From: Nitrospinaceae bacterium
GTDB lineage: Bacteria > Nitrospinota > Nitrospinia > Nitrospinales > JACRGP01
Length of the DNA stretch: 64,000 nt
NCBI GenBank assembly: GCA_029261555.1
Contig: JAJDBB010000014.1
Span: forward strand, 1-64,000
Direction of reading: 5' to 3'
Shown: one piece after another, positions 22,158 to 30,596 of the stretch
Layout: every line of letters starts with the position of its first letter
Position numbering within the stretch: the stretch's first letter is position 1
Translations under genes and position numbers: made by a program
Notes under the pieces: generated by a model
Databases searched by the model: none
Told to the model about the DNA's origin: nothing
The model's input: the letters and a program-made list of their open reading frames with translations, nothing else

Positions 22158-22571
22158 TTAGTTACAGGTTACGTTCATCGGAATCGTGCCGGTGTTGGTG
22201 ATACGAACTTCGCCGCTGATGTCGCCAATGCTGTCGCCACGGCTGAAATTATTCTGACCTTTCAAGGTAACTTTCTTCGCGCCCATGCTGTGATACTCCT
22301 GGGTATGCGCCTTGCTGTTAGGTCCTTTTCCGGGGATACCTTGCTCGTCATTTCCCAAAGTAATCGGAATCGTCGTGAAGTTGGAAGACTTCCAGATCAC
22401 TGCATTTGCATTTTCGCGATCTGTTGAATGCGATCCATTAGCTTCCAGAGTGATGGAACTGGCGTTGTTGCAACTCGTTTTGCCGCCCGGAGCCAAAGAC
22501 CCGGCTGATGCGCTTGATGCGAAACAGAATACAGCAAAAACGACAATGCTAACCAAAACAGTTTTTTTCAT
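22158..22571 (-). CDS. Small secreted protein of unknown function
   Basis: ATG at 22571 gives MKKTVLVSIVVFAVFCFASSASA signal peptide preceded by GGGAGGATGAAG; mature ~115 aa with two Cys; no family recognised. Confidence 0.75.
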   Translation of the reverse strand: MKKTVLVSIVVFAVFCFASSASAGSLAPGGKTSCNNASSITLEANGSHSTDRENANAVIWKSSNFTTIPITLGNDEQGIPGKGPNSKAHTQEYHSMGAKKVTLKGQNNFSRGDSIGDISGEVRITNTGTIPMNVTCN

Positions 22572-22662
22572 AGCTTCATCCTCCCTACCCAAGTTAAGAT
22601 TTAAAAACATTATAAAAGACTGTTCGAGGTAAATACCTGTAAGGTCCACCCCCATTTAACAA

Positions 22663-22976: not shown

Positions 22977-24341
22977 CTATAGCCATGACGTATTTTTTAA
23001 TAATTCCCCTTGGCCAATAGTTCTCGAACCCTCATTGGCCCCCAAGGTCACTTTCCCCTCCAAAACCGCCGAACCTTCAAAAGTTATATCCCCCTCCAGC
23101 GTCAACGATTCCAAGTTTATTATATCGGGGATCGATTTAAAGCGGGAATTATACCCATCCAGCCGGTCGAACGGAGCGCCAAAGTTGACGTTCGGCAACT
23201 CTTTAATTGTCCGTTGAGAATTGATCCGCATGCGGCCTTCGTCAAGCTCGAACAGGTTGGACTGAACCAGGAACAAATCGCTGGTCCTTTTAACGGGACG
23301 GAACCTTTCCCTGGGAACCAGCAACCCCACTGCGCCTGGGAAAAATTCAATGGCGGCGCCGATCGCGGTTTCCAATTGAACAACGTCGACCCCTCCCACC
23401 GTTTTATTATTGACGATCAGCTCCAGCCCCAAGGCCCCCCGCTCTAATTTTTTCGCAAGGCTCCGTAGATTGATCCAGATATTGTTCGTGCTGAAAGTCG
23501 AAAATTTCTCCACATTGCAAAACTCGTCGACGCGCTCTTCTGGAACCTGGGCGATTTCCAACAGCCGCAAACGATCTCCTTCATTATAAATCGTTCCGCC
23601 CTTCACGTCGGCCAGGGTTTTCGGCGTCAACTCCATTAAAAATGGAACGTCATGCTCTATCATATAGGTCAGGATTTTTTCATCCCAAACGGCGCCGAGA
23701 TTATCCGAATTGGAAAGGAATAAAATGTCCCGGCCCTGGCGCAACCAGTTATCCAGAAGTCCCCGGTTGGCAATGCAATGATAAAAGTCGCCGTGTCCCG
23801 GCGGGTACCAGGCTTCTCTGCCAAATTCTTTTTCGTCCAGCAGGCTCCCGTCGGTTTTTTGAATTCTGGGAAACCGGCTCTGCTCAAACGCTTCAATACT
23901 CAGCAAACCGCTATAGCTTTCCAAAGCTCTTGCCGTTTCCGCCTGAGTGTAAAAACTGTTCATTAATACGAGCGGAATTTTCGTATTATATTTCCGGTTG
24001 GCGGCGACAAGCTGATCGACCATCAGGTCCAAAAAAGTTTTACCTTCCTTGACCACGATTAAAGACTTGGGTCCAGAACATCCCATGGACGTCCCCAAGC
24101 CCCCGTTCAATTTGCAAACAACCAGCCGGGAAAGATAGTTCTCCAATTGGGCGGAATCCGGCGACGGCAGATTGTCCCAACTCAACATCTCGCTCGCATG
24201 AGGCGACTGGATGGACTCCCACTCCGCAACCTTTGCGGGTCCCTGCTGAAACTTTTTGTATAAAGACAAAAAGTATTCGGCCTCTGGACCCTCAAGGCCT
24301 ACCTCGGATAACTTTTTTAATAAACTTTCCATTTTTAACAA
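22977..24341 (-). CDS. UTP--glucose-1-phosphate uridylyltransferase, eukaryotic-type UDPGP family
   Basis: 454 aa; KLNGGLGTSMGCSGPKSLIVVKEGKTFLDL, HGDFYHC, C-terminal beta-helix-like segment. Confidence 0.92.
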   Translation of the reverse strand: MLKMESLLKKLSEVGLEGPEAEYFLSLYKKFQQGPAKVAEWESIQSPHASEMLSWDNLPSPDSAQLENYLSRLVVCKLNGGLGTSMGCSGPKSLIVVKEGKTFLDLMVDQLVAANRKYNTKIPLVLMNSFYTQAETARALESYSGLLSIEAFEQSRFPRIQKTDGSLLDEKEFGREAWYPPGHGDFYHCIANRGLLDNWLRQGRDILFLSNSDNLGAVWDEKILTYMIEHDVPFLMELTPKTLADVKGGTIYNEGDRLRLLEIAQVPEERVDEFCNVEKFSTFSTNNIWINLRSLAKKLERGALGLELIVNNKTVGGVDVVQLETAIGAAIEFFPGAVGLLVPRERFRPVKRTSDLFLVQSNLFELDEGRMRINSQRTIKELPNVNFGAPFDRLDGYNSRFKSIPDIINLESLTLEGDITFEGSAVLEGKVTLGANEGSRTIGQGELLKNTSWL

Positions 24342-24470: not shown

Positions 24471-26948
24471 GTGGACAAAAAAACTTGGGCCAATCTTCAT
24501 CAATGCTTCCGCGAAAACTCCGCGGAAGCGTTGCAACAGTCCTTTCAGTTTCATTTGAGGTACACCCAGGCCAAGGACGAATACTCTGCCACGGCCCACG
24601 ACCTCTACAACAGCATCGCCTACGCCGTGCGCGACCGCCTGGTCGACAAATGGACCGAGACTCAGGAATCCTATTACGACCAGGACGTCAAGCGCGTTTA
24701 CTTTTTGTCCATGGAATATCTGGTCGGACGCACCCTGTCCAATTACATGATCGACCTGGAAATCCGCCCGGAAATCAAACAAGCCTTGAAAGCGCTGGGG
24801 CATGAGTTGGAAGAAATCGAAGACAACGACGTAGAGCCGGGGCTCGGCAACGGGGGCCTGGGCCGCCTGGCCACCTGTTTCCAAAACTCTCTGGCTACCT
24901 TGAGCCTGCCTGCATGTGGGTACGGCATCCGCTACGAATTCGGGATTTTCTACCAGAAAATCCGCAACGGTTTTCAAACGGAAACTTCCGACAACTGGAA
25001 CCGGCGCGGCAATCCCTGGGAAATCCCCCGCCCCGAACTCATGTTCCCGGTAAAATTTTTTGGAAAAGTTGTGGAGTCCAAAAGCCCAACCGGCCAACCC
25101 GTGTACGAGTGGGTGGACGCCCGCGATGACGTGATGGCGATGGCCTACGACATTCCCGTCCCCGGTTATAAATGCGAAACCGTGAACACGCTTCGTCTGT
25201 GGAGCGCAAAATCGACGCGCGAACTGGATTTTGAATTTTTTAATACCGGGGATTACTTGCGCTCCGTCAGCCTTAAAGCGGATACGGAAAATATTTCCAA
25301 GGTTCTTTATCCCAACGACAATATCGACCAGGGAAAGGAATTGCGCCTGAAACAGGAGTACTTTTTCGTTTCGGCTTCTCTGCAGGATATCATCCGGCGC
25401 TACAAAAAAAACCATCCTACCTTCGATCAGTTCAGCGAGAAGGTTGCAGTTCAACTCAACGACACGCATCCCTCCCTGGCGGTTCCCGAATTGATGCGCC
25501 TACTGATCGACGTCGAAAAACTCAGTTGGGAGCGCGCCTGGAAAATCACCGTCGAAACTTTTGGTTTCACCAACCACACCATTTTGCCCGAGGCCATGGA
25601 AAAATGGCCGGTGCATCTGATGGAATACCTGCTTCCCCGGCACCTGCAAATCATTTACCAGATCAACGACCATTTCCTCAAACAGATTCGCGCCGACTTT
25701 CCCGGCAACGACGAATTGGCCCGGCAAGTATCCATCGTCCAGGAAACTCCCGAGAGATCCATCCGCATGGCCCATCTGGCCATTGTGGGAAGTCATAAAA
25801 CCAACGGAGTGGCCCGCCTGCATACCGAGATTTTAAAGAACCGCGTGTTCAAACCTTTCTACCAAATTTTCAGCGACCGCTTCCACAACAAGACCAATGG
25901 AATCACCCCCCGCCTGTGGCTAAAAACCTGCAATCCGGAGCTTGCGGAATTGATCACCAGCATTATCGGCGACCAATGGATCACGCAGTTGGATGAACTG
26001 AAAAAGCTCGTTCCTCTGGCCGATGACGCCGCCTTCCGCGAACAATGGGCGACAATAAAAATGAACAACAAAAAGAACCTGGCGAAATACATCGACTGCC
26101 TGTTAGGAATCAGCGTCAACGTCGATTCAATCTTCGACGTGCAAATCAAACGCATCCACGAATACAAACGGCAACTCTTAAATATTCTCCACGTCGTCGC
26201 GCTTTACAACCGCATCAAGGACGGCAAGGGCGACGGACTGGTTCCCCGCACCGTGATATTTTCCGGCAAGGCGGCGCCGGGGTATCATCAGGCGAAACTC
26301 ATCATCAAACTGATTCATAGCGTCGGAGACAAAGTAAACCATGACCCGGACGTCGGCGACCTTTTAAAAGTCGTTTTCATCCCCAACTACTCCGTATCCA
26401 AAGCGGAAAAAATTATCCCGTCAGCCGACCTTTCGGAACAAATTTCCACCGCCGGATGGGAGGCCTCGGGCACGGGCAACATGAAGCTAGCCTTGAACGG
26501 CGCCCTGACCATCGGGACCCTCGACGGCGCAAACATAGAGATCATGGAGGAAGTTGGAAAAGAAAATATTTTCATCTTCGGCCTGGAGGTTGAAGACGTT
26601 CAAAAACTGGACCAGGACGGCTACCAGCCGCGCGATTTTTACGACAAGAACCAGACGCTCAAACGCGCGCTGGAAATGATCCGCTCCGGTCACTTTTCTC
26701 CGGAGGATCCCGCCCTCTTCCACCCCATAGTCAACGCGCTTTTGAGCGGCGACACATTCAAAGTCATGGCCGATTTCGAAGCCTATTGCCAATGCCAGGA
26801 AAACGTTGCAAAAGAATATGCCGACCCAAAACTCTGGTTCAAAAAATCCATCCTCAACAGCGCCAATATGGGGAAATTTTCCAGCGACCGGACCATCCAG
26901 GAATACTCCCGGGACGTCTGGAACATACAACCCGTTCGCCGCTCCTAA
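24471..26948 (+). CDS. glgP: Glycogen/starch/alpha-glucan phosphorylase
   Basis: 825 aa from GTG start; VYFLSMEYLVGRTLSNYM, EPGLGNGGLGRLATCF, VQLNDTHPSLAVPELMR, PLP motif EASGTGNMKLALNGALTIGTLDGANIEI. Confidence 0.97.
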   Translation: MDKKTWANLHQCFRENSAEALQQSFQFHLRYTQAKDEYSATAHDLYNSIAYAVRDRLVDKWTETQESYYDQDVKRVYFLSMEYLVGRTLSNYMIDLEIRPEIKQALKALGHELEEIEDNDVEPGLGNGGLGRLATCFQNSLATLSLPACGYGIRYEFGIFYQKIRNGFQTETSDNWNRRGNPWEIPRPELMFPVKFFGKVVESKSPTGQPVYEWVDARDDVMAMAYDIPVPGYKCETVNTLRLWSAKSTRELDFEFFNTGDYLRSVSLKADTENISKVLYPNDNIDQGKELRLKQEYFFVSASLQDIIRRYKKNHPTFDQFSEKVAVQLNDTHPSLAVPELMRLLIDVEKLSWERAWKITVETFGFTNHTILPEAMEKWPVHLMEYLLPRHLQIIYQINDHFLKQIRADFPGNDELARQVSIVQETPERSIRMAHLAIVGSHKTNGVARLHTEILKNRVFKPFYQIFSDRFHNKTNGITPRLWLKTCNPELAELITSIIGDQWITQLDELKKLVPLADDAAFREQWATIKMNNKKNLAKYIDCLLGISVNVDSIFDVQIKRIHEYKRQLLNILHVVALYNRIKDGKGDGLVPRTVIFSGKAAPGYHQAKLIIKLIHSVGDKVNHDPDVGDLLKVVFIPNYSVSKAEKIIPSADLSEQISTAGWEASGTGNMKLALNGALTIGTLDGANIEIMEEVGKENIFIFGLEVEDVQKLDQDGYQPRDFYDKNQTLKRALEMIRSGHFSPEDPALFHPIVNALLSGDTFKVMADFEAYCQCQENVAKEYADPKLWFKKSILNSANMGKFSSDRTIQEYSRDVWNIQPVRRS

Positions 26949-26957
26949 TAATTTCTT

Positions 26958-27587
26958 ATGATTATTTTTAATAAAAATATTTACCAGCCCCGGCCCGACC
27001 AGCTCGATCCCCTGCATATGGAAAATGCGGACAATCCTAACTTTAATCTCAATCCTTATGATTTGTTTCTGACCGTGTTGACCCAGGACCGACGCCTGTT
27101 CATTGGCCTGGACCGCATGGACAAAACCGAATTGGATGAAAAAATGCCAATCATTTTTCCAAACGCATCGCGTTTCGGCGACCTCGACGTGTTGAACCAA
27201 CTTTCCAGACGCCTGCTGGAAGCGCTTGTCGACCGGTCGCGCTGGTACGAAATGAACTCCTATCACGCCTGCTATCTATACGACGCCCTGTTCAGCATGG
27301 TGGAGGACTACAGCTACTCCGACTTGGCGGAGCGCATGGAAATTTTCCCTGAGCATGGAGGCGAGGCGATCGATTTAAATGCGTTCATCAACGAGTACTT
27401 TTTAAACACGCTGTTTTTGGTCCACCCCGACCGGTTCGACAAGCTTAGCCCGGAAGAACTCGAAGAACGCTATCGTCAGAATCCCTGCCTGTTTGCCGTC
27501 GTCAACCGGCTCACCCCCAGTCCCGAGGAAATCCTGTTGACCCAGCACACGACCAACCCCTACGAACCGGAGCAACCAAACAATTGA
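26958..27587 (+). CDS. Uncharacterised protein, paralogue A (homologous to 28225..28842)
   Basis: 209 aa; shares NIY, L(N/D)PY(D/E), (F/Y)PNA..(R/K)FG, W(Y/H)EMN(S/A)YH.CYLYD.L, YF.NT.FL..PD.F..LS, CLF.V(V/I)N.L.P with the downstream paralogue. Confidence 0.85.
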   Translation: MIIFNKNIYQPRPDQLDPLHMENADNPNFNLNPYDLFLTVLTQDRRLFIGLDRMDKTELDEKMPIIFPNASRFGDLDVLNQLSRRLLEALVDRSRWYEMNSYHACYLYDALFSMVEDYSYSDLAERMEIFPEHGGEAIDLNAFINEYFLNTLFLVHPDRFDKLSPEELEERYRQNPCLFAVVNRLTPSPEEILLTQHTTNPYEPEQPNN

Positions 27588-27597
27588 GGATAAAAAA

Positions 27598-28020
27598 TTG
27601 AAATACCCCAAAAGTCCTTATGAAAAAGAAGGCGGACTGTACCACTTCCCGCGCATGCTGGATAAAATTCGCATGCATGAAAAAGGGGAACTGAACGCCT
27701 CCTACGACCCTCGGCTGGGAAAGGGATTCGATTATTTTTTATGCAAGTTTCTGGGCGTGGAATATCAAGACGTCATCGAACAGGGGAAGGCGGGTCAAAC
27801 GGATACCGACATTCTTGAATGGTGCTACGAAACCGGAAGGCGGAGAGACGAGTACGATTGCATGCTGTTCAACAAGTTCTTACAGAAACTCGGTTGGCGC
27901 GACGAAGACAACGGAATCACCGGGCGGCTTAAGAATTACAAAAGGGATCTCAACCTTGAACGCGACGATATAGAAACCATCTTCGACCTCATCGAAGTTG
28001 ACGAGAAAAGAAAAGATTAA
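27598..28020 (+). CDS. DUF5069 family protein
   Basis: 140 aa from TTG start; SPYEKEGGLYHFPRMLDKIRMHEKGELNASYD...ILEWCYETGRR resembles DUF5069 pattern from memory. Confidence 0.75.
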   Translation: MKYPKSPYEKEGGLYHFPRMLDKIRMHEKGELNASYDPRLGKGFDYFLCKFLGVEYQDVIEQGKAGQTDTDILEWCYETGRRRDEYDCMLFNKFLQKLGWRDEDNGITGRLKNYKRDLNLERDDIETIFDLIEVDEKRKD

Positions 28021-28094
28021 GCGCTGGCGAAGGACTCAGCCTGATATCTTGGCCGTCTACCCTGTTAATCCTGTCTAGATTTTTTTTATTGGGA

Positions 28095-28124
28095 CGGCGC
28101 CTACGCCGCCAGCGTCACGCTGGC
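28095..28124. other. Tandem GC-rich hairpins in the glgP-cluster intergenic region
   Basis: cggcg-ccta-cgccg (28095-28108) and gccagcg-tca-cgctggc (28108-28124), just after a T-run (~28079-28087). Confidence 0.5.
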
Positions 28125-28224
28125 CGGCTTGAATCGCGTTGGCAATGATGATAGGCTAATTCTTTGGAAATTGGCCGCCCGCTACGGGTCGCCTTGACGT
28201 CCAAATCTCCCGAGACAAAACGCC

Positions 28225-28842
28225 ATGCTTGTCTTCAAAAATAATATTTACGAAGCCAAAAGCGTTTTCCCCTCCACCGGAACCCAGTCCGACCCGGAGC
28301 TGACTCACGGCCTGGACCCTTACGAATTCATCAAAATTTCCCTGCTCGAAGAAAAAGACGTCGTGCAGTTTGTTGAAAAACAGCCGCGCACCTTCTGGGA
28401 CGAGGACGCGCGCAATTTTTATCCCAACGCCTGCAAGTTCGGGTCGTTCCTCACCTTGCGCAAATTCCTGTTCATTCTGCTTGAAGGGCTGGGCGCCAAA
28501 CCGGCCTGGCACGAAATGAACGCCTACCATTTCTGCTACCTGTACGACGTGCTGAGTCGGAATGCTTTCAACTACAACGCGGACAACCGGGAAGAGCGCA
28601 TCAACTCCCTGCCCCATTTAAACGCGCGTCCGCTGAACTTCAACCTCTTTGTCCGCGACTACTTTTTCAACACGGGATTCCTGACCAGCCCGGACCATTT
28701 CAATTCCCTCTCCGGCGCCGAGAAAAAGGAAAAGGGAATGGACGTACCCTGTCTCTTCTCCGTTATTAACGGACTCAAACCCTGCCTCGATGAAATGGTC
28801 CTCAAGGAAACCCGGGACTACCCCTACACGCTTTACGTTTGA
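28225..28842 (+). CDS. Uncharacterised protein, paralogue B (homologous to 26958..27587)
   Basis: 205 aa; co-linear conserved motifs with paralogue A. Confidence 0.85.
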   Translation: MLVFKNNIYEAKSVFPSTGTQSDPELTHGLDPYEFIKISLLEEKDVVQFVEKQPRTFWDEDARNFYPNACKFGSFLTLRKFLFILLEGLGAKPAWHEMNAYHFCYLYDVLSRNAFNYNADNREERINSLPHLNARPLNFNLFVRDYFFNTGFLTSPDHFNSLSGAEKKEKGMDVPCLFSVINGLKPCLDEMVLKETRDYPYTLYV

Positions 28843-29039: not shown

Positions 29040-30596
29040 TTGAAAAAAGTTGTCACCGCCGGACAGATGCAATCCATCGACCGGCGCGCTATAGATAAAT
29101 ACGGAATCCCCGGCCTGGTCCTTATGGAAAACGCCGGACGCGAGTGCGCCGAGCGTATCTGGCAAAAATATTCCGCCATGCCCGACGGCAAAATTCTTAT
29201 CTTCGTCGGCAAAGGCAATAACGGCGGCGACGGCATGGTGATCGCCCGACACTTATTGAACAAAGGAGCCGAGGTCCGGGTGTTTCTCCTGGCCAAACAT
29301 TCCGAGTTGAAAGGCGACGCCAAAACCCACGCCGACGCGGCGTTCAGTATGGAAGCGCACATCCGGGAAGTCGACGAATCGAAATTAAAATACCTCGACC
29401 ACAGCCTGCGCCATTGCCGGATCGTCGTCGACGCCCTGTTCGGCTCCGGCCTGACCCGGCCCGTCGAGGGGATTTACGAAAAAGTCGTCGACAAGATCAA
29501 TCAGTTTGAAAATTACGTGGTCGCGGTAGATATTCCCTCGGGGATCGACTCCGACAGCGGACAGATCATGGGTCCCTACATAAAGGCCGACCTGACCGTG
29601 GCGCTGGCTCAATATAAAAGGAGCCATTTATTACACCCGGCGGCGGAGGCAATGGGAGAAATTCAACTGGCGGATATTGGAATCCCGCAAGGCGCTGTGG
29701 ACGAGGAATCGGTAGCCCTGTACCGGGTGGAAGAGTCGGACGTGCGCCCCCATTTCAAAAAACGCCGCGCCAATTCGCATAAAGGCAGTTACGGTCACGC
29801 TCTGGTGGTCGCCGGGGCAAGAGGCAAATGCGGCGCCGCAGGACTGGCCGCGTTGGCGGCCTTGCGCATGGGAGCCGGACTCGTCACACTGGCCGTTCCA
29901 GAGTCCTGCCTTGCCGGACTGGAATTCAATCCTCTGGAGGTGATGACAGTGGGCCTGCCGGAAACTCCGGATGGAACCCTGGATGTCTCGGCGGAAAGCG
30001 CCCTGCTGACGCATTGCGAAGGCAAGTCCGCCCTGGCGCTAGGTCCGGGCCTGTCCACTCACCCGCAAACCGCCGCGCTGATAAAAAGTATCCTGCCAAA
30101 AATATCCTGTCCCATGGTAATTGACGCCGACGCTATAAATATCCTGGCGGATAGCCAGGTAGTTTTGTCGCAGTTGCAGGCAGAGACCGTATTGACCCCG
30201 CATCCCAAGGAATTTTCGCGTATTTCGGGTTGGAGCGTCGAGGAAATCCTGAACTCGAAAATCGAAAAGGCGCTAGAGTTTTCGCAAGAATACACGGTCG
30301 GATTGCTCCTCAAGGGCGCCGGGTCTATTCTTGCCTGCCCCTCCGGCGCGGCTTATATCAATTCCACGGGAAACCCCGGCATGGCCACCGGCGGCTCGGG
30401 CGACGTGTTGACCGGCTTCATCGCCGGACTCCTGGCGCAGGGATTCAACGTTCAAGACGCCGCGCTGTGCGGCATGTACCTGCACGGCCTGGCGGGAGAC
30501 GTCTACGCCGAGGAAAACAGCGAGGCTTCCCTCATCGCCGGCGATTTACTGAGAACATTACCCACCGCGATTAAACGCATTCTCAACCAGCCATGA
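29040..30596 (+). CDS. nnr: Bifunctional NAD(P)H-hydrate epimerase / ADP-dependent NAD(P)H-hydrate dehydratase
   Basis: 518 aa from TTG; YjeF N-domain (GKGNNGGDGMVIARHL) and carbohydrate-kinase-like domain (LTPHPKEFSRI, GNPGMATGGSGDVLTGFIAGLLAQG). Confidence 0.96.
   Translation: MKKVVTAGQMQSIDRRAIDKYGIPGLVLMENAGRECAERIWQKYSAMPDGKILIFVGKGNNGGDGMVIARHLLNKGAEVRVFLLAKHSELKGDAKTHADAAFSMEAHIREVDESKLKYLDHSLRHCRIVVDALFGSGLTRPVEGIYEKVVDKINQFENYVVAVDIPSGIDSDSGQIMGPYIKADLTVALAQYKRSHLLHPAAEAMGEIQLADIGIPQGAVDEESVALYRVEESDVRPHFKKRRANSHKGSYGHALVVAGARGKCGAAGLAALAALRMGAGLVTLAVPESCLAGLEFNPLEVMTVGLPETPDGTLDVSAESALLTHCEGKSALALGPGLSTHPQTAALIKSILPKISCPMVIDADAINILADSQVVLSQLQAETVLTPHPKEFSRISGWSVEEILNSKIEKALEFSQEYTVGLLLKGAGSILACPSGAAYINSTGNPGMATGGSGDVLTGFIAGLLAQGFNVQDAALCGMYLHGLAGDVYAEENSEASLIAGDLLRTLPTAIKRILNQP

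Follow-up and report, generated by a model that had tools for sequence, protein, structure and literature searches.

Two short paralogues of an orphan protein superfamily at a conserved place in Nitrospinales genomes

Genes at the locus

The window, by which we mean the whole 64,000-nucleotide stretch of Nitrospinaceae DNA that was analysed, belongs to a 3.05-Mb draft genome in 129 contigs. The genes listed in Table 1 are arranged in the order UGP2 (on the reverse strand), glgP, A, DUF5069, B, nnrD/E, tsaE and then a lptC-lptA-lptB-rpoN-hpf-ptsN-ptsI block. Library matches name glgP, DUF5069 and nnrD/E; the UGP2 gene is one that we take to be such by similarity, and the names tsaE, lptC, lptA, lptB, rpoN, hpf, ptsN and ptsI are likewise presumed from sequence.

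Table 1. Features of the A/B locus, with positions in the window
Feature	Position	Strand	Length or assignment
UGP2-type UTP-glucose-1-phosphate uridylyltransferase, divergent from the cluster, conserved upstream neighbour	22977..24341	-	ORF; named by similarity
Glycogen phosphorylase glgP	24471..26948	+	PF00343 (1094.6 bits), TIGR02093
ORF A, one of the two short Nitrospinales orphan-family paralogues	26958..27587	+	209 aa
DUF5069 gene in the A-B gap, genus-specific	27598..28020	+	PF16798, TTG start
Leader 5' of B	28021..28224		B-proximal stretch conserved with the sister species; short dispersed-repeat fragments
ORF B, the other short orphan-family paralogue	28225..28842	+	205 aa
nnrD/nnrE (YjeF) NAD(P)HX epimerase/dehydratase, conserved downstream neighbour	29040..30596	+	PF01256, PF03853

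An earlier note on this DNA had described A and B as co-linear homologues flanking a DUF5069-like gene. Both are open reading frames exactly at the positions given there and align end to end with 33% identity (E=8e-39), and the gene between them matches PF16798 with 114.5 bits (cut-off 27; E=5.2e-33) and has GAGG eight bases 5' of its TTG start. The close spacings that the note had pointed out are also present in the window, with A beginning 9 nt after the end of glgP and a further 10 nt separating A from DUF5069. A contig search of a public genome collection with A gave a sole match, the Nitrospinaceae sister MAG OFTM44. Against this sister species the dN/dS values are 0.11 for A, 0.125 for B and 0.137 for DUF5069, showing that all three are real protein genes under purifying selection. 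In the sister species the A-B gap also contains a TPR gene, and the spacing from A to DUF5069 is 128 nt.

The conservation of the leader next to B, together with its repeat fragments, suggests that B probably has its own promoter. Promoter and terminator scans of the locus gave matches at chance level, and an Rfam scan found no RNA element. Short stretches of 28022-28129 recur elsewhere in the genome, and 28035-28083 is found also on another contig (G000:C5) with 85% identity. The same genome holds a second full-length glycogen phosphorylase gene (G000:C75:110141-112282). A small secreted-looking protein (MKKTVLVSIVVFAVFCFASSASA...) is encoded at 22158-22655 of the window and at L017:202-612; many relatives carry homologues of it close to UGP2, and in another genome one lies next to a long paralogue of A and B.

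The superfamily and its predicted structure

The earlier view of A and B as divergent paralogues of an unrecognised family holds. Neither A, nor B, nor any of the 63 aligned members gave a significant match in Pfam or NCBIfam (best E 0.0026), PHROGs and PADLOC gave no match to A or B below E 0.046, and a sequence search of the PDB found no relative. No relatives were found in phages and plasmids, nor did we find a paper on the family in the literature. A and B therefore belong to an orphan superfamily, with relatives found in none of the libraries tried.

The AlphaFold2 model of A, built from 63 homologues, has a mean pLDDT of 90.0 and a pTM of 0.87. It is composed of helices at 33-52, 56-66, 76-91 and 101-120 plus shorter ones, with a few short strands (at the N-terminus, 96-98 and 195-197). 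The model of a long paralogue (pLDDT 89.7, pTM 0.88) repeats the element order of A over its first 160 residues. For a confident model we regarded a Foldseek E below 0.001 or a TM-score above about 0.5 as indicating a known fold. The best E against the PDB was 1.4 for A and 2.5 for the long paralogue, with TM-scores of at most 0.28, and the best E for A against a viral library was 1.2; for helical proteins such an absence is weaker evidence. A new fold is a possibility rather than a result, the comparison covering the PDB and viral models, and no known unrelated family that might claim A and B, the outcome that would have counted against the earlier note, emerged from the profile libraries or from Foldseek against the PDB.

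A superfamily profile was built from seven A/B proteins, and the search was extended to a set of 387 related genomes, of which some 310 lie outside the phylum. The superfamily in any form is present in all 65 Nitrospinales genomes and the short A/B genes in 55. Most of the ten genomes lacking the short genes are incomplete, and G030 (97% complete, 1.7 Mb) lacks them too. Beyond the order there are weak matches in two genomes of a neighbouring family of the same class (f7); the relative at L118:7038-7439, outside the order, is a genuine homologue truncated by the contig end (39 bits). The profile search gave no match in the other members of the class, and neither the short nor the long profile matched any further genome of the 387, the roughly 310 outside the phylum included.

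Searching with A detected paralogues of about 290 amino acids in the window's own genome, and the superfamily contains three such lines. Alignment of 63 short with 39 long proteins by hhalign gave a probability of 99.2% (E 7.8e-20) over 157 columns. A maximum-likelihood tree of 51 proteins recovers A and B as reciprocally monophyletic, with support of 98/98 for the A clade and 98/85 for the B clade, and the long forms make up a separate clade (100/100). The A/B duplication thus predates the order.

The first long line lies beside hflK-hflC-trkA-trkH and the second opposite a radical SAM gene, some genomes having long forms near both; the third, about 30% identical, lies in several genomes beside nadE, a CBS-domain gene and a phosphomannomutase-like gene. 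We take these neighbours to be what their names say from a reading of their sequences. The diversity of these contexts disfavours one glycogen-specific role. In many Nitrospinales genomes (L006, L012, L016, L018, L122, L126-L129, L133, L137) a paralogue of this length is directly upstream of hflK-hflC, followed by TrkA/TrkH-type potassium uptake genes. Another is divergent from the radical SAM gene, which has a CNLKCNYCF motif (L015, L017, L062, L119-L121, L123, L130, L135, L136), and has a lysine-rich C-terminus in several genomes. The CBS-linked paralogue occurs in two copies in the window's genome, L134 (G000:C24) and L165 (G000:C57), possibly through duplication or an assembly mixture.

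The hallmarks of A and B are an N-terminal ML-x-F-K-x-N-I-Y, the W-x-x-M-N-x-Y-H block, a conserved C-terminal E191/L194/P201-Y202 and a location flanked by UGP2/glgP and nnrD/E. The earlier note had called a longer block, W-E-M-N-x-Y-H-x-C-Y-L-Y-D, invariant. This is correct for W96, N100 and Y102, which are invariant in the 63 short proteins, with H103 and D109 conserved at about 98%; it fails for C105, conserved at 73% in A and 91% in B, and for the E before M-N, which is not conserved. In the model of A, N100 stands immediately before helix 101-120, and in that of the long paralogue its counterpart N106 stands immediately before helix 107-130. Because this is a helix-capping position, we read the conserved block mainly as a putative folding core. 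A ligand core, as the earlier note had suggested, is also possible, since K5, N7, H103, D109 and E191 are strongly conserved within A/B. Most long forms have Y at the position of H103, so this candidate catalytic residue is not kept across the superfamily.

Neighbours of the A/B pair

To find which genes travel with A and B we surveyed the A/B loci of 55 Nitrospinales genomes, 57 loci in all, labelling neighbours by homology. At the 36 intact loci, defined as those with A and B on one contig, the gap between the two holds an opposite-strand glutathione peroxidase gene in 24 cases (assigned by PF00255, E=7e-40), is empty in 10 and holds DUF5069 in 2. The latter two, G000 and G004, are both of the window's genus. 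An open reading frame of about 190 amino acids in the gap of other genomes had been considered as a shadow ORF; this was rejected, as it is the real opposite-strand glutathione peroxidase gene. Two families of the order carry the gene there in most of their genomes (e.g. L058:8177-8755, L068, L069 and L071-L073).

The flanks of the pair are more constant than its gap. Downstream, nnrD/E is present at 46 of the 48 loci that no contig end interrupts, and the gene directly upstream is UGP2 at 33 of the 57 loci and glgP at 14, with UGP2 upstream of glgP at several further loci. The stable frame of the pair is a divergent UGP2 gene upstream and nnrD/E downstream. Loci with glgP directly upstream of A or B are scattered over six genera (g1, g3, g7, g8, g13 and g15), so the adjacency may well be ancestral and later lost. 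G008 and G045 (96% and 97% complete) both carry A and B, and no PF00343 match was found in either genome.

DUF5069 is present in 57 of 78 genomes of the phylum, mostly at other loci, to whose copies the window copy is 23-27% identical, and none was detected in two genomes with A and/or B, G012 and G022. We found no paper in the literature that names it. In the A-B gap DUF5069 is a passer-by confined to one genus, rather than a conserved partner of the pair. The earlier note had joined A, DUF5069 and B in a functional unit coupled to glycogen degradation, and had made conserved linkage to DUF5069 and glgP in related genomes the measure of this idea; the survey shows that the linkage is not conserved for DUF5069 and largely not for glgP, and it supports neither the unit nor the coupling.

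The pair is not always complete. Across the 57 loci we found no obligate co-occurrence: A is alone in 8 genomes of genus g7, which includes genomes 94-97% complete, and in G011, and B is alone in G002 and G022. Neither gene therefore strictly needs the other.

Possible roles and comparison with known systems

The reading that we favour, tentatively, is that A and B may be soluble, non-catalytic helical domains for docking or regulation, with one partner for each paralogue; solubility, partner binding and the non-enzymatic role are all inferred. What it builds on is the homology, antiquity, selection, synteny and restricted distribution of the family, and confident models without a fold match. 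A and B are the two short members of a Nitrospinales superfamily, duplicated before the order diversified, each predicted to form a compact, nearly all-helical domain with a few short strands, and they have stayed in tandem at one fixed spot on the chromosome, with UGP2 (often joined by glgP) on one side and nnrD/E on the other. Each of A, B and the three long lines would be dedicated to a different partner protein, and DUF5069 and the glutathione peroxidase gene would be interchangeable occupants of the gap, outside the machine. The helix N-cap position of N100 fits a structural rather than a catalytic role. Against the docking reading, the conserved polar set K5, N7, N100, H103, D109 and E191 would also suit an active site, and A and B have each been separately lost, B at the locus in g7 and G011 and A in G002 and G022, so that their role is not essential in all lineages.

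The main rival of the docking-domain reading would make A and B subunits or isoforms of an unrecognised enzyme of sugar-nucleotide or NAD(P)H metabolism, with that polar set, whose residues are about 87-100% conserved in each of the two proteins, as its active site. The constant neighbours UGP2 and nnrD/E argue for such an enzyme, as does the nadE, CBS-domain and phosphomannomutase-like company of the third long line. We nevertheless consider it rather unlikely, given that the HflK-linked long forms have Y in place of H103, the nadE-linked form has lost W96 and N100 sits at a helix N-cap. In addition, the constant downstream block from tsaE to ptsI is a housekeeping one with no metabolic theme, so the proximity to metabolic genes may be plain synteny.

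If A and B could work only together, as a dedicated A:B heterodimer, this would explain why a reciprocally monophyletic pair has been kept in tandem across the order, and why certain positions are specific to the A or B subfamily (44 D/E, 67 F/Y, 116 E/F, 119 S/N and 120 Y/H); the single-gene loci, above all those of the nearly complete A-only genomes of g7, make it improbable. That A, DUF5069 and B are one unit, transcribed with glgP and controlling glycogen degradation, is very improbable and largely refuted by the survey: the 9-nt and 10-nt spacings, the glgP adjacency in six genera and the glycogen deposits known from Nitrospina gracilis (PMC3578206) speak for it, while DUF5069 occupies only 2 of 36 gaps with a wider, TPR-containing arrangement in the sister species, the opposite-strand gene in 24 of 36 makes a shared simple A-B operon unlikely there, and A/B genes persist in genomes with no match to PF00343 (G008, G045) or no DUF5069 detected (G012, G022).

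A broader proposal, which we regard as somewhat doubtful, is that the fold of the superfamily is unlike that of any solved structure and that the superfamily is an innovation defining the Nitrospinales clade. Each genome would keep about four to five of the paralogues, every one of them tied to a cellular system of its own. These systems would be sugar-nucleotide metabolism and NAD(P)HX repair, HflKC-Trk membrane functions, the radical SAM gene and NAD synthesis.

The Nitrospinota include the most abundant nitrite oxidisers known from the marine water column (PMC10839748). A superfamily that occurs in each Nitrospinales genome sampled, and that in the genomes searched was not found beyond the class Nitrospinia, offers a good handle on lineage-specific biology, and is a candidate for a new structure. 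The locus also illustrates how tight same-strand spacing in one genome can mislead, in that the glgP-A-DUF5069 arrangement is genus-specific and the place of A/B beside UGP2 and nnrD/E is ancient. What we see here is an orphan family that deserves a name rather than a glycogen system, and we propose the name Nitrospinales A/B orphan superfamily.

In comparison with known systems, DUF5069 (PF16798) shares with A and B its strand and, in the window's genus, its place between them, but is unrelated in sequence, A and B having no Pfam match, and is not linked to them outside that genus. The 14 loci with glgP directly 5' of A or B resemble glgP operons; the difference is that A and B show no match to any glycogen enzyme and are retained in genomes where glgP is undetected. 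The long paralogues are about 85 residues longer than A and B, with an extra helical C-terminal part, other neighbours and a clade of their own, yet they are homologous to A and B over the first 157 or so columns and share their predicted order of elements, including W-x-x-N-x-Y followed by the central helix.
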